Positions 8,992-17,190 of a stretch of 64,000 nt of DNA are shown in pieces (the stretch's first letter is position 1; every line of letters begins with the position of its first letter). Source of the DNA: Billgrantia ethanolica. Lineage in GTDB: Bacteria > Pseudomonadota > Gammaproteobacteria > Pseudomonadales > Halomonadaceae. A program made the position numbers and the translations under genes. A model generated the notes under the pieces. The model was given only the letters and a program-made list of their open reading frames with translations. It did no database searches and was not told where the DNA came from. The stretch lies in NCBI RefSeq assembly GCF_021404305.1, contig NZ_JABFTX010000001.1, forward strand, positions 1,550,001 through 1,614,000, written 5' to 3'.

Positions 8992-9939
8992 ATGCTGCTG
9001 CCTGCCATCGCGATCGCCCTGGGCCTTGCCGTACTCGTGTGGAGCGCCGACCGCTTCGTCAATGCCGCTGCCGCCACGGCCAGCCGTACCGGACTGAGCG
9101 CCATGCTGATCGGCATGACCGTGGTGGCGCTGGGCACTTCGGCCCCCGAGATGGTGGTGGCGGTGTTTGCCGCCCTGGATGGCCTGCCCGACCTGGCCAC
9201 GGGCAATGCCCTGGGCTCCAACATCGCCAACATCGGCCTGGTACTGGGCATGACCGCCCTGATTCGCCCAATCCCGATTCGCTTTTCCATGGTCCGGCGT
9301 GAATTGCCCCTGCTGCTGGGTGCCACCGGCCTGGCCGGCTATGCCCTGGCCAACGGCATCCTGGGGCGCTTCGATGCGCTGTTTCTGGGCCTGCTGCTGA
9401 TCTTCAGCCTGTGGTGGCTGCTGCGTGCCGATACCCCCGACGCTCCGACGGGCGACGCCATACCCGAAATGACGCTCAGGCGCGCCCTGCTGTGGCTGGC
9501 TTTCACTCTCATCCTGCTGGCACTCAGCTCGCGCTCCCTGGTGTGGGGCGCCAGCGAGCTGGCTCGCGGCCTGGGAGTCAGCGAGTTGATTATCGGCCTC
9601 ACCATCGTGGCAATAGGTACCAGCCTGCCCGAGCTCGCCGCCTGCATCGCCAGCGCCATCAAGCGCCATCACGACCTGGCCATCGGCAATGTGATCGGCT
9701 CCAACCTGTTCAACCTGCTGGCCGTGCTACCGATACCCGGCCTGCTGGCGCCCGGCCCGATCGACCCCGCCGCCGCCGCCCGGGATTTTCCGATCATGCT
9801 GCTGCTGACTCTCGGCATGGGCATGCTCCTGCTGTGGTTCCGCCACGGCCGGCTCGGGAGGCTACCCGGCATGCTCTTCCTGGGCATCTATCTGGTCTAT
9901 TTGAGCTGGCTGGCCGCAGCAGCCAGCGGTGCCACTTGA
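8992..9939 (+). CDS. yrbG: Calcium/sodium antiporter, YrbG/CaCA family
   Basis: 315 residues, very hydrophobic, with the two inverted alpha-repeats of cation/Ca2+ exchangers: GTSAPEMVVAVFAALDG with GNALGSNIANIGLVLG in the first half, and GTSLPELAACIASAIK with GNVIGSNLFNLLAV in the second. The acidic residues in both GTS-P-E motifs coordinate the transported cation. Inner-membrane exchanger; exact ions not shown by sequence. Conserved first neighbour of kdsD, as in E. coli yrbG-kdsD-kdsC-lptCAB. Confidence 0.92.
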   Translation: MLLPAIAIALGLAVLVWSADRFVNAAAATASRTGLSAMLIGMTVVALGTSAPEMVVAVFAALDGLPDLATGNALGSNIANIGLVLGMTALIRPIPIRFSMVRRELPLLLGATGLAGYALANGILGRFDALFLGLLLIFSLWWLLRADTPDAPTGDAIPEMTLRRALLWLAFTLILLALSSRSLVWGASELARGLGVSELIIGLTIVAIGTSLPELAACIASAIKRHHDLAIGNVIGSNLFNLLAVLPIPGLLAPGPIDPAAAARDFPIMLLLTLGMGMLLLWFRHGRLGRLPGMLFLGIYLVYLSWLAAAASGAT

Positions 9940-9970
9940 GCGATTCCCCGCAAAGGACAACAATCAGCGC

Positions 9971-10987
9971 ATGACCAACGACACCTCAACGCCGACAGAT
10001 CAGAACGCCCCCGCGGAAGGGGACTCGCCCATGCGGGCCAGCGCCCGTCGTACCCTGCGGATCGAGGAGCAGGCCATCGCCGCGCTGGCCGGACGGCTCG
10101 ACAGCCACTTCGACCGCGCCTGCGAGCTACTGCTCGCCTGCCAGGGCCGTGTCGTGGTAACCGGCATGGGCAAGTCCGGCCATATTGCCGGCAAGATCGC
10201 CGCCACCCTGGCCAGCACCGGCACCCCCGCCTTCTTCGTGCACCCCGGCGAGGCCAGCCACGGCGACCTCGGCATGATCACACCCGGCGACGTGGTGCTG
10301 GCCCTGTCGAACTCCGGCGAGACGGCGGAAGTCACCGCCCTGCTGCCGCTGCTCAAACGCATTGGCACGCCGCTGGTCAGCATGACGGGCCGCCCCGACT
10401 CGACCCTGGCCCGCCACGCCGACGCCCATCTCGATGCCGGCGTTGAACGCGAGGCGTGTCCTCTCGATCTGGCACCGACCGCCTCCACCACCGCCGCCCT
10501 GGCACTGGGCGATGCGCTGGCAGTAGCACTGCTCGAGGCACGCGGCTTCACCGCCGAGGACTTCGCCCTCTCTCATCCCGGCGGCAGCCTGGGCAAGCGC
10601 CTGCTGCTGCGGGTCGGCGATCTGATGCACCAGGGCGAGCGGCTGCCCCGCGTGCCGCTGGGCAGCCCGCTGCGCGACGCCCTGCTCGAGATCACCCGCC
10701 AGGGGCTCGGCTTTACCTGCGTCGTCGATGAGCAGAATCGTCTGATCGGTGTCTATACCGACGGCGACCTGCGCCGCACCCTCGACCAGCACCAGGATCT
10801 CAGCCGGCTGAAGGTGGATGACGTCATGACCTGCCCCGGCAAACGCATCGGCGCCGAGGTGCTCGCGGCCGAAGCGGTGCGCGTGATGGAAGACAACCGA
10901 ATCACGGCACTGGCTGTGATCGATGACGAAGGCCACCCCATCGGTGCCCTGCACATGCACGACCTGCTGCGAAGCGGCGTGATCTGA
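9971..10987 (+). CDS. kdsD: D-arabinose 5-phosphate isomerase
   Basis: Interconverts ribulose 5-phosphate and arabinose 5-phosphate, the first step of Kdo synthesis for lipopolysaccharide. N-terminal SIS domain (VVVTGMGKSGHIAGKIAATL, FFVHPGEASHGDLGMI, LSNSGETAEVTALLP) followed by two CBS domains (GVYTDGDLRRTLDQ and the C-terminal ALHMHDLLRSGVI). The start is uncertain: 9971 gives 338 residues. An internal ATG at 10031 has a better ribosome site (GGAAGGGGA, 7-8 bases away) and gives 318 residues, closer to the E. coli 328; a GTG at 9929 would overlap the antiporter gene. The function does not depend on the choice. Confidence 0.95.
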   Translation: MTNDTSTPTDQNAPAEGDSPMRASARRTLRIEEQAIAALAGRLDSHFDRACELLLACQGRVVVTGMGKSGHIAGKIAATLASTGTPAFFVHPGEASHGDLGMITPGDVVLALSNSGETAEVTALLPLLKRIGTPLVSMTGRPDSTLARHADAHLDAGVEREACPLDLAPTASTTAALALGDALAVALLEARGFTAEDFALSHPGGSLGKRLLLRVGDLMHQGERLPRVPLGSPLRDALLEITRQGLGFTCVVDEQNRLIGVYTDGDLRRTLDQHQDLSRLKVDDVMTCPGKRIGAEVLAAEAVRVMEDNRITALAVIDDEGHPIGALHMHDLLRSGVI

Positions 10988-11010
10988 CTTCATTCTGACC
11001 AGGAGAACCC

Positions 11011-11568
11011 ATGGCGCTCGCCACCTCTACCCTCGACCCGCGTCTGCTCGACCGCCTGCGCAAGATCCGCCTGCTCGCCCTGGACGTGGATGGTGTGCTC
11101 ACCGACGGCCGGCTTTACTTCCAGGCCGACGGCGTGGAGATCAAGGCGTTCCATACCCAGGACGGCCTGGGCATCAAGCTGCTGCGCCGCGCCGGACTGC
11201 AGGTCGCCTTCATCACCGGCAGGGAGTCACCCATGGTCAGTCACCGCGCCGCCGCCCTGGGGGTCGATCACGTCTTTCAGGGCTGCGAGGACAAGCTCGC
11301 CACTCTCCGCGAGCTGTGCAACCGCAAAGGCATCGAGCTCGAGCAGGTCGCCTTCTGCGGCGACGACCTGCCCGACCTGGCGCCCATCCAGCGCGCCGGT
11401 CTCGGCATCACCGTGCCCGGCGCCCCGCCCTATATTCGCGCCCTGGCCGACCACGTGACCGAGCGTAGCGGCGGCCATGGCGCAGTGCGCGAGATCTGCG
11501 ACCTGCTGCTCGAGGCACAGGGGCACCGCGATGCCCTGATCGACACCTACCTGCACGGCAAGCGCTGA
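11011..11568 (+). CDS. kdsC: 3-deoxy-D-manno-octulosonate 8-phosphate phosphatase
   Basis: 185 residues, HAD superfamily type C0 without a cap domain. Nucleophile motif LLALDVDGVLTDGRL (first Asp is the nucleophile), motif II FITGRES and motif IV CGDDLPDL. Removes the phosphate from Kdo 8-phosphate. It follows kdsD by 23 bp with an AGGAG ribosome site, and is followed by lptC after 12 bp. Confidence 0.97.
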   Translation: MALATSTLDPRLLDRLRKIRLLALDVDGVLTDGRLYFQADGVEIKAFHTQDGLGIKLLRRAGLQVAFITGRESPMVSHRAAALGVDHVFQGCEDKLATLRELCNRKGIELEQVAFCGDDLPDLAPIQRAGLGITVPGAPPYIRALADHVTERSGGHGAVREICDLLLEAQGHRDALIDTYLHGKR

Positions 11569-11580
11569 GGTCGCCCGCCG

Positions 11581-12201
11581 ATGCTGCGTCGTCTTCCGCG
11601 CCCCTCGTTTCGTCTCTGGCTGTTTCTGCTGCTGCTGGCCCTGGGTGGTCTGATCACGTGGCTGGACCCATGGCAGCCCCCACCCCCCGGCCCAGTACCC
11701 ACCGACGAAGCCGGCGAGCCCGACTACTTCCTCGAGCAGGCCCGCCTGACGCGCTTCGATTTCGAGGGGCGTGCTCACCAGCGCCTGGAGAGCCCTCGCC
11801 TAGTGCATACCCCCCACGACGACGTGACACGTGCCGTCACGCCGTTGGCGCACCTGATCGATCGCGAAGGACGACTATGGGTGGCCAATAGCCAGGAGGG
11901 GCGGCTCGGCCCGGGCGGCAACCCGCTGACCCTGACTGGCGACGCACGGCTCTTCGCCCCCGAGGAGCGCTGGCAGCTCGACACCGAGGTGCTGCACTAC
12001 GACGCCAATGTCGGACACGCCTGGAGCGATACGCCGGCGCTGCTACAGCAACCGCCACAGCACATGCGCGGCGAACGTTTCGACGCCTGGATCCATGACA
12101 ACCGGGCACGATTGACCGACAATGTGCGCGGCTATCACCCCCCGGAAGGCGCTCAGCCGGGACAGGCCGACCCCGTCACCCTGGAGGAACTCACGCCATG
12201 A
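11581..12201 (+). CDS. lptC: LPS export protein LptC
   Basis: 206 residues. One N-terminal transmembrane helix (about residues 9-28, FRLWLFLLLLALGGLITWL) and a periplasmic beta-jellyroll beginning PDYFLEQARLTRFDFEG. LptC sits on LptB2FG in the inner membrane and hands LPS to LptA. Its TGA overlaps the lptA ATG (ATGA), giving translational coupling. Low sequence conservation is normal for LptC; identity rests on topology and position. Confidence 0.93.
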   Translation: MLRRLPRPSFRLWLFLLLLALGGLITWLDPWQPPPPGPVPTDEAGEPDYFLEQARLTRFDFEGRAHQRLESPRLVHTPHDDVTRAVTPLAHLIDREGRLWVANSQEGRLGPGGNPLTLTGDARLFAPEERWQLDTEVLHYDANVGHAWSDTPALLQQPPQHMRGERFDAWIHDNRARLTDNVRGYHPPEGAQPGQADPVTLEELTP

Positions 12202-12725
12202 AGCGATGCAAGCTTCCAACGCCACGCATGCTGCTGACCCTGGCATTGATCGGCCTGGCATGGAGCCCTGCCGCGAGCATGGCCCAGCAGCGCGACGCAG
12301 ATCAGCCCATCCATATCGAGGCCGACCGGCTAGATCTCGACGATGCTGCCGGCACGGCGGTCTATACCGGCGACGTGGATATCCGCCAGGGCACCATGCG
12401 CATCACCGGCGACCGCGTCGAACTCCAGCGCAACGCGGCCGGCGAGCTGTCACGCGCCACGGCCCGCGGCGAGCGCGCCTACCTCGAACAGCAGCCCGAC
12501 CCCGATCAGCCCGTGGTCCGCGGCTGGGGGCGCACCGTCATCTATCACGCGGCCGAGCGCCGCGTCGAACTGATCGACCGCGCCGAGCTGCACCAGGCCG
12601 GCGACACCTTCGATGGCGGCTATCTCGAGTATTTCCTCGACCGTCGCGTGGTTCAGGCCCGCGCCGAGAGCGAAGGCGTCGAAGGACGTCAGCGCATCCG
12701 CATGACCCTGCAACCGGAGCGCTGA
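12198..12725 (+). CDS. lptA: Periplasmic LPS-bridge protein LptA
   Basis: 175 residues with a signal peptide (cleavage near residue 29 after SPAASMA). The mature OstA/LptA domain has the typical [25 protein letters not shown] start and a [13 protein letters not shown] strand. Subunits stack to form the periplasmic bridge that carries LPS from LptC to LptD. Ends 1 base before the lptB start. Confidence 0.96.
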
Positions 12726-12726
12726 G

Positions 12727-13458
12727 ATGGCGATGAAGACCCTGCACGCCCGCCACCTGGCGAAGAGCTACAAGCGCCGGCGCGTGGTGCAAGACATCAG
12801 CCTCTCCATCCAACAGGGCAGCGTGGTGGGGCTGCTCGGCCCCAACGGAGCCGGCAAGACCACCTCGTTCTACATGATCGTGGGCCTGGTCAAGGCCGAT
12901 GCCGGCAACGTCTGCATCGACGACCTCGACCTCTCGAAGAGCGCCATGCACGAACGGGCCAAGGCGGGCATCGGCTACCTGCCGCAGGAGGCTTCGATCT
13001 TCCGCAAGCTCTCGGTGGCCGACAACATCATGGCCATCCTGGAGACCCGCAAGGATCTGGATCGCCAAGGGCGTCATCAGCGCCTGGAGCAGCTGCTGCA
13101 GGACTTTCACGTCACGCACATCCGCGACAACCTCGGCATGAGCCTGTCGGGCGGCGAGCGGCGGCGCGTGGAGATCGCCCGCGCGCTGGCCACCGAACCG
13201 GCCTTCATTCTGCTGGACGAGCCCTTTGCCGGCGTCGATCCGATCTCGGTGGGCGAGATCAAAGGCATCATCCGCCAACTCAAGGCCCGCGACATCGGCG
13301 TGCTGATCACCGATCACAACGTACGCGAGACGCTGGACATCTGCGATTCGGCCTATATCGTCGGCGACGGCCAGATCATCGCGGAAGGCGATGCCGAGGC
13401 CATTCTGGCCAATCGTCGGGTAAGGGAAGTCTATCTCGGCGAAGACTTCCGTCTATAG
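12727..13458 (+). CDS. lptB: LPS export ABC transporter ATPase LptB
   Basis: 243 residues. Walker [17 protein letters not shown], signature [16 protein letters not shown], Walker [15 protein letters not shown] and the [15 protein letters not shown] switch region, all typical of LptB. It powers LPS extraction with LptF and LptG, which are not in this window. The 177-bp gap that follows carries two sigma-54-like promoter cores ahead of rpoN. Confidence 0.97.
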
Positions 13459-13527
13459 CGGCACCCCTGCCCATAGCGCATTCCGACCCAACAAGCAAGA
13501 GCATGATCTTACATTAAAATTCCCTAA

Positions 13528-13562
13528 CGGGCATGGATATTGCCGATGGCATGCTTATTGCA
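13528..13562 (+). promoter_or_regulatory. Two tandem sigma-54 (-24/-12) promoter-like cores upstream of rpoN
   Basis: First core GGGCATGGATATTGCC (13529-13544) and second core TGGCATGCTTATTGCA (13547-13562). Both have the invariant GG-N10-GC spacing, with GG at 13530-13531 and 13548-13549 and GC at 13542-13543 and 13560-13561, and both keep TTGC at -12. The second matches the consensus TGGCAYR-N4-TTGCW fully. The two are offset by 18 bp and end about 80 bp before rpoN. Confidence 0.6.
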
Positions 13563-13641
13563 GCCCTGCACTCTTGCAAGTGATCGTCGGCCAGTCTAGG
13601 GTAGAGTCTTTCCGGCAGATGAGCCCATTATTCTCATGGCC

Positions 13642-15057
13642 ATGAAAGCATCCTTGCAACTGCGAGTCGGCACTCAGCTGACCATGACCCCACAGCTGCA
13701 GCAGGCCATCGCGCTGCTGCAGCTCTCCACCCTGGACCTGCGCCAGGAGATCCAGCAGGCCCTCGAGTCCAATCCCATGCTCGAGCTCGACGACGGCTTC
13801 GGCGAACAAGCCGTCAGCGAGCCCCAGAGCGACGACTGGGCCAGCGAAATTCCCGGCGAGCTCTCCACCGACAGCGACTGGACGGATACCTATCCGGATC
13901 ATGGCAGCGGCGCCGGCGGCGCCACCGGCGAAGGCCCCGATTTCGAACGCCAGGCCGCGGGACAGACGCTGGCCGGCCACCTGATGTGGCAACTGGCGAT
14001 GATCGACGTGAACGAGCGTCAGCGGCAGATCGCCGAAAGCCTGATCGATGCCGTCGACGGCACCGGCTACCTGACCCAGCCGCTGGAAGAGATCCGCGAC
14101 GGCCTGCGTCGCCAGGGCCTCGAGGGGCTGCCTACCCGTGAGGTCGAGCAGGTGCTGCTGCGCCTGCAGCAGTTCGAACCCACCGGCGTGTTCGCCAGGG
14201 ACCTGCGCGAATGCCTGATGCTGCAGCTCGCCACCCTGCCCGACGATACGCCCCTGCTGCCCCAGGCACGCCGCCTGGTGCGCCAGTTCCTCGAAGCCCT
14301 GGCCGCCGACGACCGTCGCCTGCTCAAGCGGCGCCTGAGCCTGGACGACGAGGCCCTCGACGACGCCATTGCCCTGGTGCGCTCGCTGAACCCGCGCCCT
14401 GGCAGCGCCTATGCCGAGGTCGGCAGCAACTACATCACCCCCGACCTGGTCGCCTATCACGACGAGTCCGGCTGGCGCGTGGAGCTCAATGCCGAAGCGC
14501 TGCCACGCCTGCGCATCCAGCCCGACTACGTCGCCCTGGTGCGCCGCGCCGACAAGAGTCAGGACAACCAGTTCCTCAAGGATCACCTGCAGGAAGCCCG
14601 CTGGTTGATGAAGAGCCTGGCCAGCCGTAACGACACCCTGCTGCGAGTGGGGCGCGAAATCATGGCCCGCCAGATCGACTTCCTGGAGCAGGGCGAGGAG
14701 GCGATGAAGCCGCTGGTACTGGCCGACATCGCCCAGGCCGTGGAGATGCACGAATCGACCATCTCACGGGTCACGACGCAGAAGTTCATCCACACGCCGC
14801 GCGGCGTGTTCGAGCTGAAGTATTTCTTCTCCAGCCACGTTGGCGGCAACGGCGAGGGGGATGCTCACTCCAGCACCGCGATTCGCGCCCGCATTCGCAA
14901 GCTGATCGCCGACGAGCCACCGCGCAAACCGCTCTCCGACAGTCGTCTGGTGGAGCTGCTGGCCGACGACGGCATTCAGGTGGCGCGCCGCACCGTGGCC
15001 AAGTATCGTGAAGCGCTGGGAATACCTTCCTCGAGCGAACGCAAGCGCTTTCGTTGA
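13642..15057 (+). CDS. rpoN: RNA polymerase sigma-54 factor
   Basis: Start taken at 13642 (MKASLQLRVGTQLTM), which aligns with the N-terminus of family members; an ATG two codons upstream at 13636 is also possible. 471 residues. Region I is the Gln/Leu-rich MTPQLQQAIALLQLSTLDL that binds activators, region II is short and acidic, and region III has the core-binding and helix-turn-helix parts with ESTISRVTTQKFIHTPRG. The RpoN box ARRTVAKYRE lies near the C-terminus. It directs nitrogen, flagellar and carbon genes through AAA+ activators. Followed by hpf, ptsN, rapZ and ptsO, the usual rpoN cluster. Confidence 0.97.
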   Translation: MKASLQLRVGTQLTMTPQLQQAIALLQLSTLDLRQEIQQALESNPMLELDDGFGEQAVSEPQSDDWASEIPGELSTDSDWTDTYPDHGSGAGGATGEGPDFERQAAGQTLAGHLMWQLAMIDVNERQRQIAESLIDAVDGTGYLTQPLEEIRDGLRRQGLEGLPTREVEQVLLRLQQFEPTGVFARDLRECLMLQLATLPDDTPLLPQARRLVRQFLEALAADDRRLLKRRLSLDDEALDDAIALVRSLNPRPGSAYAEVGSNYITPDLVAYHDESGWRVELNAEALPRLRIQPDYVALVRRADKSQDNQFLKDHLQEARWLMKSLASRNDTLLRVGREIMARQIDFLEQGEEAMKPLVLADIAQAVEMHESTISRVTTQKFIHTPRGVFELKYFFSSHVGGNGEGDAHSSTAIRARIRKLIADEPPRKPLSDSRLVELLADDGIQVARRTVAKYREALGIPSSSERKRFR

Positions 15058-15104
15058 ACTCGGCGCGCAGCGTTGACGCCGGACAAGAGCGTCGCTCGGA
15101 GGGG

Positions 15105-15132
15105 TTTGCAAGGAGGCAAAAAGGGTTACAAT
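15105..15132 (+). promoter_or_regulatory. Candidate sigma-70 promoter for hpf
   Basis: -35 TTTGCA (15105-15110), 16-bp spacer, -10 TACAAT (15127-15132), 33 bp before the hpf ATG. The -10 is a 5/6 match. Separate transcription of hpf from rpoN would fit its stationary-phase role, but this is inference. Confidence 0.45.
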
Positions 15133-15165
15133 CAAACCACCACTCGAAGGACGAAGGAGCTCGTC

Positions 15166-15474
15166 ATGCAAGTCAACATTACCGGCCATCATGTTGAACT
15201 GACCGATTCCCTGCGTGACTACGTGAGCGAAAAGCTCAACCGCGTCCAACGGCACTACGACAACATCACCAACGTGCAGGTCACCCTCTCGATCGAGAAG
15301 GAGCGCCAGCAGGCCGCTTGCACGCTACATGCCGCCGGTGCCGATCTGCATGCCGAAGCCTCCGACCCGGACATGTACGCTGCCATCGATGCGCTGACCG
15401 ACAAGCTCGATCGTCAACTGGTCAAGCACAAGGAAAAGGCCCAGGCCCGCGCCCAGGGCGCCGGCATTCGCTGA
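15166..15474 (+). CDS. hpf: Ribosome hibernation promoting factor, short form
   Basis: Start at 15166 (MQVNITGHHVELTDSLRDYV) with AAGGAG a few bases upstream; the frame is open further 5' but that part is not conserved. 102 residues, the short HPF/YfiA type with the sigma-54-modulation fold and no C-terminal dimerisation domain. It binds the 30S decoding centre and, with RMF, helps form inactive 100S ribosomes. ptsN starts 6 bp downstream. Confidence 0.95.
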   Translation: MQVNITGHHVELTDSLRDYVSEKLNRVQRHYDNITNVQVTLSIEKERQQAACTLHAAGADLHAEASDPDMYAAIDALTDKLDRQLVKHKEKAQARAQGAGIR

Positions 15475-15480
15475 GTTGCC

Positions 15481-15951
15481 ATGACACTGGAAAACATACT
15501 GCCCCCTGAGCGCGCGCTGTTCGACGTTCCCGGGGGCAGCAAGAAGAGGGTGCTGGAGTTCTTCAGCACCTTCATTGCGCAGAACACCCCGAGCCTCGAC
15601 AGCCAGGAGGTCTTCGGCCGATTGATCGGCCGTGAGCGGCTGGGCAGTACCGGCATCGGCAACGGCGTCGCCATCCCGCACGCACGAAGCCCGCACTGCC
15701 ACAGCCCGGTCGCCGCCTTCCTCAAGCTGGCCGAGCCCATCGATTTCGACGCCATCGACGGCGAGCCGGTCGACCTGGTCTTCGTGCTGCTGGTACCCGA
15801 GGAGGCCGACGACACGCATCTGTCGCTGCTGAGCCAGGTCGCCAGAGTAATGAACGATGCCGAGACCCGTTCGCAACTGCGCAAGTGCGAAAGCCAGCGC
15901 GAACTTCACGAGCGTCTCATCGGCGCCATCCGACGACAGTCCTCGGCCTGA
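15481..15951 (+). CDS. ptsN: Nitrogen PTS enzyme IIA (EIIA-Ntr)
   Basis: 156 residues, PTS EIIA type-2 fold. The phosphorylated residue is His67 in GVAIPHARS. It receives phosphate from NPr (ptsO, 1 kb downstream) in the PtsP-NPr-EIIA-Ntr relay and regulates potassium transport, carbon-nitrogen balance and other processes; it is not a sugar transporter component. Upstream it abuts hpf, downstream rapZ begins 46 bp later. Confidence 0.96.
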   Translation: MTLENILPPERALFDVPGGSKKRVLEFFSTFIAQNTPSLDSQEVFGRLIGRERLGSTGIGNGVAIPHARSPHCHSPVAAFLKLAEPIDFDAIDGEPVDLVFVLLVPEEADDTHLSLLSQVARVMNDAETRSQLRKCESQRELHERLIGAIRRQSSA

Positions 15952-15997
15952 CCGCCATCCCCAGCCGCTCGGCCAGCCCCTGATCAGGAGAAACGTA

Positions 15998-16918
15998 ATG
16001 CAGCTTGTGATCATCAGCGGCCGCTCAGGCTCCGGCAAGTCGATCGCACTGCAGGCGCTCGAAGACATCGGCTACTACGCCATCGACAACCTGCCGGCGA
16101 TGCTGCTCGGCTCCCTGGTCGACGAACTGCGCGGCTCACCCACGGTACAGCAGTGCATCGCCGTAAGCATCGATGCGCGCAACCTTCCTCATGCGTTGGA
16201 ACGGTTCCCCAGGTTGCTGGAGGAGCTGCGTGCCAAGCAGGTCGACTGTCAGATCGTCTATCTCACCACCGATGCGCGAATCCTGATCGAGCGCTACTCC
16301 GCCACCCGGCGCCGGCACCCGCTGACCCGCGACCGGGACATGACCCTGAGCGAGGCGATCGAGACCGAAGACACGACGCTGAGCGAGATTCGCAACCTGG
16401 CCGACCTGATCATCGATACCTCGCGGCTTTCGGTCCACGACCTGCGCGGACGCATCACCGAACAGGTGGCCAGCCATCGCGCCGACCAACTGACCCTCAC
16501 GGTGGAGTCGTTCGGTTTCAAGGGCGGCGTACCGCTGGACGCCGATATCGTGTTCGACGCGCGCTGCCTGCCCAATCCCTACTGGGACCCGCGCCTGCGC
16601 GCGGCGACCGGCCGCGAAGCGAGCATCGTGGAGTTTCTCGAACAGTACCCACTGGTCCACCAGATGCACGAGGACATCGTCACCTGGGTCGAGCGCTGGC
16701 TGCCGGCCTATCGCGACAGCCATCGCAGCTATCTCACGGTCGCCATCGGCTGCACCGGCGGCCAGCATCGCTCGGTGTACCTGGCCGAGCGCCTCGCCCG
16801 CCACCTCGCCCAACAGCAGCCCGACGTGCGTCTGCGCCACCGCGAGCTCGGCATCCATATACCGGTCTCTACCACGCAGGAGATGACCGCAGCGCCATCC
16901 GACCGCAAGGAAACCTGA
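15998..16918 (+). CDS. rapZ: RNase adapter protein RapZ
   Basis: Start at 15998 (MQLVIISGRSGSGKS), preceded by CAGGAG; 306 residues. N-terminal P-loop GRSGSGKS at residues 8-15, a Walker B-like YLTTDARILIERY region, and the C-terminal RNA-binding and regulatory domain containing VAIGCTGGQHRSVYLAERLA. In E. coli RapZ binds glucosamine-6-phosphate and presents the sRNA GlmZ to RNase E; in Pseudomonas relatives its target is less clear. It ends 2 bases before the ptsO start. Confidence 0.95.
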   Translation: MQLVIISGRSGSGKSIALQALEDIGYYAIDNLPAMLLGSLVDELRGSPTVQQCIAVSIDARNLPHALERFPRLLEELRAKQVDCQIVYLTTDARILIERYSATRRRHPLTRDRDMTLSEAIETEDTTLSEIRNLADLIIDTSRLSVHDLRGRITEQVASHRADQLTLTVESFGFKGGVPLDADIVFDARCLPNPYWDPRLRAATGREASIVEFLEQYPLVHQMHEDIVTWVERWLPAYRDSHRSYLTVAIGCTGGQHRSVYLAERLARHLAQQQPDVRLRHRELGIHIPVSTTQEMTAAPSDRKET

Positions 16919-16920
16919 GC

Positions 16921-17190
16921 GTGCCCAGCCGCAAGCTGACTCTGACCAACAAACGCGGCCTCCATGCACGCGCTGCCACCAAGCTGGTTCAGTGCTGCCA
17001 GCCTTTCGATGCACGCGTGTTCGTCTGCCGAGGCGCCCAGCAGGCCGAGGCCACCAACATCATGGCCCTGCTGATGCTCGGCGCCCCGTGCGGCACCGAA
17101 CTCGACATCAACGCCGAGGGTGCGGATGCGGAAGCGGTTCTCGAGGCCATCGAGGCTCTCTTCGAGGCCCGCTTCGATGAGGATCTTTAG
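16921..17190 (+). CDS. ptsO: HPr-like phosphocarrier protein NPr
   Basis: Starts with GTG at 16921, two bases after the rapZ stop; 89 residues. The active-site His15 lies in NKRGLHARAATKLVQ, and the second conserved helix starts NIMALLMLGAPCGTEL. No Ser46-type regulatory site of Gram-positive HPr is seen. It passes phosphate from PtsP to EIIA-Ntr. Last gene of the rpoN cluster, followed by a terminator-like hairpin. Confidence 0.95.
   Translation: MPSRKLTLTNKRGLHARAATKLVQCCQPFDARVFVCRGAQQAEATNIMALLMLGAPCGTELDINAEGADAEAVLEAIEALFEARFDEDL

Follow-up and report, generated by a model that had tools for sequence, protein, structure and literature searches.

A sigma-54 core tied to a sigma-70-type promoter upstream of rpoN: a probable autogenous operator in Halomonadaceae

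Why should the gene for sigma-54 itself be preceded by two sites of the kind that sigma-54 polymerase recognizes? The question is raised by a 64,000-nucleotide stretch of the Billgrantia ethanolica genome (hereafter, the window) in which rpoN, encoding sigma-54 (an ORF of 473 aa, 13636 to 15057, plus strand, ATG at 13636), adjoins lptB (12727 to 13458, same strand, recognized from its ORF and translation) on the downstream side. The lptB stop (13458) and the rpoN start codon are separated by 177 bp. Both genes belong to a plus-strand series at 8992 to 17190 that, with names assigned from the ORF translations, we take to comprise a transporter-like gene, kdsD-, kdsC-, lptC-, lptA-, and lptB-like genes, rpoN, and hpf-, ptsN-, rapZ-, and ptsO-like genes. 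A homologue search found rpoN in 61/61 genomes of the genus and 151/151 of the family, and an lptB-like end precedes it in all 110 loci compared (the window's genome counted, some genomes represented twice).

Two sigma-54 cores in the lptB-rpoN gap

The sigma-54 −24/−12 consensus has the form GG-N10-GC with TGGCAYR and TTGC. Two predicted sites of this kind, both on the plus strand and with exact GG-N10-GC spacing, lie in the gap, as an earlier note on this DNA had claimed: an upstream core, GGGCATGGATATTGCC, at 13529 to 13544 (last base C), and a proximal core, TGGCATGCTTATTGCA, at 13547 to 13562, 73 bp before the rpoN ATG, from which a sigma-54 transcript would be expected to start at about 13573. 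Judged against this consensus, both qualify as putative −24/−12 sites by their GG-N10-GC, TGGCAYR, and TTGC sequences. The note had the proximal core fitting the full consensus, and it is indeed the sole match to TGGCAYGNNNNTTGCW without mismatches within the window. The span given there, 13528 to 13562, was correct at its end and one base early at its start, and the distance of 18 bp between the cores holds from start to start, the gap itself being 2 bp. The description of the cores as overlapping is inexact, as the two 16-mers are separated and overlap is expected of the polymerase footprints only; mutual exclusion of polymerases at this 18-bp spacing is plausible, and the switch or dosage sensor that the note derived from it may be regarded as a candidate function.

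A lone match of this type means little, since the window is not enriched in sites with up to two mismatches (14 found versus 20.6 expected) and the whole genome contains 75 matches with at most one mismatch, compared to 53 for a backward control pattern. The 4.57-Mb genome contains three exact copies of TGGCAYGNNNNTTGCW. It has one occurrence of the strict 32-bp tandem pattern, the one at rpoN, and three other places match that pattern with one mismatch.

The gap was compared across Halomonadaceae in 130 rpoN upstream regions (all 61 genomes of the genus and 69 of another 134 from the family), of which 126 were placed (L187, L190, L203, and L208 were left out). Cores were scored with a sigma-54 matrix at a cutoff of at least 14, on the plus strand and within 150 bp of rpoN; only the plus strand was scanned over the 126 regions, and both strands were scanned for the first 110 loci. 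The earlier note had looked to such a comparison for retention of both cores. One core is indeed kept in 122 of the 126 regions, representing 21 of 22 placed genera, but both are present in only 63, the others comprising 59 regions with a single core and 4 with none. Named loci show the same division: the tandem is seen in, for example, Billgrantia zhangzhouensis, Halomonas urumqiensis, and two Litchfieldella loci, and a single core in Salinicola, Chromohalobacter, and most Vreelandella loci. In two coreless genomes, both of genus g5, lptB and rpoN are only about 25 bp apart; gap lengths were used for these two loci only, and some lptB ends among the regions were mis-set (e.g., 35 for L010). 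In L174 and L175 (genus g11), no sigma-54 core was found on the plus strand, which makes them natural tests of life without the proposed operator. Removal of one duplicate reduced the single-core set from 59 to 58, and later counts refer to the resulting 121 regions (63 plus 58).

The second core stands at exactly −18 in 63 regions, where shuffling predicts 0.01; three other offsets occur once each. GG and GC are invariant in both cores of all 63 tandem regions while adjoining positions vary; the upstream GG, unlike the GC, belonged to the criterion by which tandems were called, and in one of the 63, L115, the upstream core is degenerate and was admitted on the strength of these two pairs. Directly following GC, 62 of the 63 proximal cores and 58/58 single cores have A or T; upstream cores have G or C at this position in 63/63 regions.

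The adjoining sigma-70-type promoter and the upstream module

Beside the proximal core lies a predicted sigma-70-type promoter composed of a −35-like TTGCAA (13574 to 13579, plus strand) and, 17 bp after it, a −10-like TAGGGT (13597 to 13602, plus strand), with an expected start at about 13609. It is weak by consensus and was missed by a stock promoter scan, whose one match lay inside lptB. The arrangement is conserved: of the 121 Halomonadaceae regions, 117 have TTGNNN-N16-18-TANNNT at the core or immediately behind it (7.1 expected by shuffling), the four regions without it belonging to genera g3 (three) and g22 (one). In these 117, the putative sigma-54 site overlaps or abuts the predicted sigma-70 promoter of rpoN.

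The distance from core end to −35 element is −5, 1 to 2, 7 to 11, or 17 to 21 bp. At −5, the core's own TTGCA constitutes the −35, an arrangement seen in seven genomes (L135, L137-L140, L142, and L149) from two separate places in the tree, suggesting that the fusion was probably made twice. The distances skip 3 to 6 and 12 to 16 bp and favor 10 and 20 to 21, one helical turn apart; strict helical phasing was considered and rejected, as whole turns fit 10 and 20 to 21 and not −5, 1 to 2, or 7 to 8. The coreless L174 retains a TTGCAC-N17-TAGGGT sigma-70-type promoter.

Upstream of the two cores, a candidate IHF-like site, CAAGAGCATGATC, at 13496 to 13508 (plus strand) matches seven of the nine informative positions of YAANNNNYTGATW, the reverse of the IHF consensus WATCARNNNNTTR (PMC7962754; this and the other papers cited are drawn on from part of their text). 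Predicted sites with at least eight of nine positions occur at a fixed place, about 51 bp (50 to 52) before the proximal core, in 47 of the 63 tandem regions and in none of the 58 single-core regions (shuffled, ~0.5%), only three of the latter reaching eight elsewhere between −100 and −20. An IHF-alpha gene is present in the genome. Since the IHF-like site accompanies the upstream core, the two look like one module.

The history of this module was traced on a midpoint-rooted tree of lptB tails from 120 of the 121 regions (one, without a placed lptB end, was dropped), a shallow tree with 42 of its 116 inner branches open. All 63 tandem regions fall within one clade of 88 (SH-aLRT 94), with 14 changes. 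This pattern fits one gain followed by some 13 losses, although the tree itself cannot tell gain from loss, and losses on that scale would mean that the upstream core is not indispensable. The second core and the IHF-like site look like an add-on module of the Halomonas-containing clade. Early melting begins at −11, directly after the GC (PMC3844500), and the G or C that the upstream core carries there suggests that binding has been kept rather than opening.

Other families and the competing readings

At the order level, 80 of 111 further genomes were fetched and 67 regions located; 13 of the 80 remained unplaced, including L263, where a contig end cuts the region, and L223 (gap of −1) was kept among the 67. 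With both strands scanned, 24 of the 67 have a core with a score of at least 13 (0.3 expected), the other 43 falling below. Two families were sampled by their best 30 matching loci each (of 61 and of 59 genomes). One, f40, is labeled Halieaceae-like because the named Haliea, Pseudohaliea, and Halieaceae loci are arranged alike and L295 reads like L106. In 28 of its 30 best-matching loci a core scores at least 12, in all 28 on the minus strand (the two loci scoring below 12 are left out of the 28), and a plus-strand core of at least 11 was found in none of the 30. The minus-strand core is followed by TTGNNN-N16-18-TA[CA]ACT in 28/28 of the loci so scored among the best 30 (0.2 expected), at 3 to 6 bp in 27 and at 17 bp in one. 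Pointing away from rpoN, this core cannot transcribe rpoN there. As the inversion belongs to another family, its bearing on the window is something we infer.

The other family, f21 (L322-L351), which appears to be Pseudomonadaceae-like, has a plus-strand core in all 30 of its best-matching loci, about 72 to 93 bp before rpoN, and in 25 of these 30 the core is one and the same sequence, AGGCATATAATTTGCT. Its unconstrained N positions read TATAAT. This embedded TATAAT was dropped as a sigma-70 promoter, its −35 averaging 2.2 of 6 matches versus 2.4 in shuffled sequence. A downstream sigma-70-type site was present in only 3 of the 30 best-matching loci, so the geometry is not universal and f21 provides nothing in favor of occlusion.

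Tied to a sigma-70-type promoter, shifting its place with the tie kept, and inverted in f40, the core is best read as an operator. It probably lets RpoN polymerase block the sigma-70 promoter of rpoN, an autogenous operator exerting negative feedback. Most rpoN transcripts would be made by sigma-70 polymerase at the promoter predicted at 13574 to 13602, and sigma-54 holoenzyme would bind the proximal core as a closed complex that needs no activator. Since a sigma-54 transcript would be expected to start at about 13573, right next to the −35 element at 13574, the two polymerases could not both occupy the site. More free sigma-54 holoenzyme would then mean more occlusion and less rpoN transcription. 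The upstream core would most likely load or hold sigma-54 polymerase beside the operator, stabilized by IHF. The earlier note's suggestion of an action of RpoN on its own gene is well supported by the conservation. Of the two modes it allowed, repression is favored over self-transcription in view of the sigma-70-type promoter in 117 of 121 regions, the lack of a detected conserved activator site in about 78 codons at the lptB end, and the inverted f40 core. The repression it envisaged was of transcription arriving from lptB; the more likely target is rpoN's own sigma-70-type promoter, which the note had missed.

Some observations count against the operator reading, among them the weakness of the sigma-70-type promoter and the differing geometry in f21. 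The 122 Halomonadaceae cores are directed toward rpoN and tandem regions contain an IHF-like site, both of which an activated promoter would lead one to expect, and 43 of the 67 order-level regions have no core scoring at least 13. Constitutive expression of rpoN is reported in P. aeruginosa (PMC4362757), and sigma-54 promoters predicted before rpoN, in classes including gamma-Proteobacteria, have been read as sigma-54 transcription (PMC12316311).

The proximal core might instead be fired by an enhancer-binding protein with the help of IHF bending, giving positive feedback in the inducing condition with the sigma-70 promoter as the basal source, a reading that we consider unlikely. In its favor, all 122 Halomonadaceae cores point to rpoN (within the strand coverage given above), the proximal core is near consensus and has A or T behind its GC in 62/63 tandem regions, an IHF-like site stands at a fixed upstream place, the genome has 15 strong Sigma54_activat profile matches (187 to 250 bits) plus 3 weak ones, and rpoN autoregulation has been inferred from predicted sigma-54 promoters (PMC12316311). 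Against it, the IHF-like site is missing at that place in 58/58 single-core regions, all of which retain the core, and the core is inverted in the Halieaceae-like family. In addition, the approximately 78 codons at the lptB end, compared in 67 genomes, contain isolated conserved codons only and no clustered synonymous conservation of the kind an activator site, expected 100 to 200 bp upstream, would leave, a comparison to which codon bias gives little power. A more intricate scheme, and a somewhat more doubtful one, makes the pair a two-register sensor of free sigma-54 polymerase with a single origin within the Halomonas-containing clade. Holoenzyme bound at the proximal site would again occlude the rpoN sigma-70 promoter, while IHF-aided holoenzyme on the upstream core, unable to open with G or C at −11, would exclude the proximal register and leave sigma-70 polymerase free. 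The IHF level would set the partition, and rpoN would in this way read its own holoenzyme pool together with growth phase.

Holoenzyme on the cores could also act as a roadblock that halts polymerases coming from lptB and thereby links rpoN with the lpt operon. Read-through is possible, since a stock scan detected no terminator-like site in 13300 to 13800, and the lptB-rpoN order is kept in 110/110 loci. We nevertheless regard a roadblock as very improbable: it leaves the tie between the core and the sigma-70-type promoter unexplained, and E. coli RNA-seq effectively rules out roadblocks by intragenic sigma-54 sites, which were without effect on the overlapping gene (PMC4591121). That the cores are chance or vestigial matches, as the lack of enrichment in the window at two mismatches and the roughly 13 apparent losses of the upstream core might suggest, is refuted by the conservation in 122 of 126 regions, by the 63 second cores at −18 versus three elsewhere, and by the GG and GC that stay invariant in 63/63 upstream and proximal cores amid variable flanks.

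Relation to known systems

Sigma-54 commonly passes for a constitutive factor whose regulation rests with its activators. If the operator reading is right, sigma-54 dosage is itself under selection and feedback-controlled, as would be suggested by a self-binding site that is tied to the sigma-70-type promoter of rpoN across many genera, apparently re-created in different positions, and even inverted. The inverted form and the upstream core, which perhaps binds and melts poorly, constitute natural tests of sigma-54 as a repressor versus an initiator.

The sites predicted in PMC12316311 are of the same kind and precede the same gene as those described here; its main text makes no mention of tandem, overlapping, Halomonas, or lptB. 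Autoregulation of rpoN by sigma-54 found no match in the available text of PMC3162934, PMC4362757, PMC3616915, PMC7657599, and PMC3247240. A literature search returned nothing on a sigma-54 promoter of Halomonas rpoN, and neither the tandem 18-bp pair nor its associated IHF-like site nor the inverted arrangement turned up in the literature covered, mostly non-subscription papers represented by parts of their main text. With rpoN autoregulation already known or predicted, the proposed operator is not a new kind of control.

Activated sigma-54 promoters assisted by IHF include Pu and nifH. The rpoN region resembles these in having a −24/−12 core with an IHF-like site upstream and differs from them in its two cores 18 bp apart and in the lack of a detected conserved activator site at the lptB end. 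The rpoN gene of P. putida is negatively autoregulated. So is rpoN1 of R. etli (PMC3916325), and in both cases sigma-54 limits its own gene as in the proposed operator. More generally, sigma-54 acts as a repressor at promoters that its site overlaps, and RNA-seq data are consistent with competition at intergenic sites (PMC4591121). In Salmonella, glmZ, whose sigma-70 and sigma-54 promoters overlap, is up in an rpoN mutant (PMC3844500). The glmY/glmZ system is thus similar in that two holoenzymes compete for one promoter region, as would be the case here; there, however, the target is an sRNA and both promoters are productive, whereas here the target would be rpoN itself and productivity is not required of the sigma-54 site.
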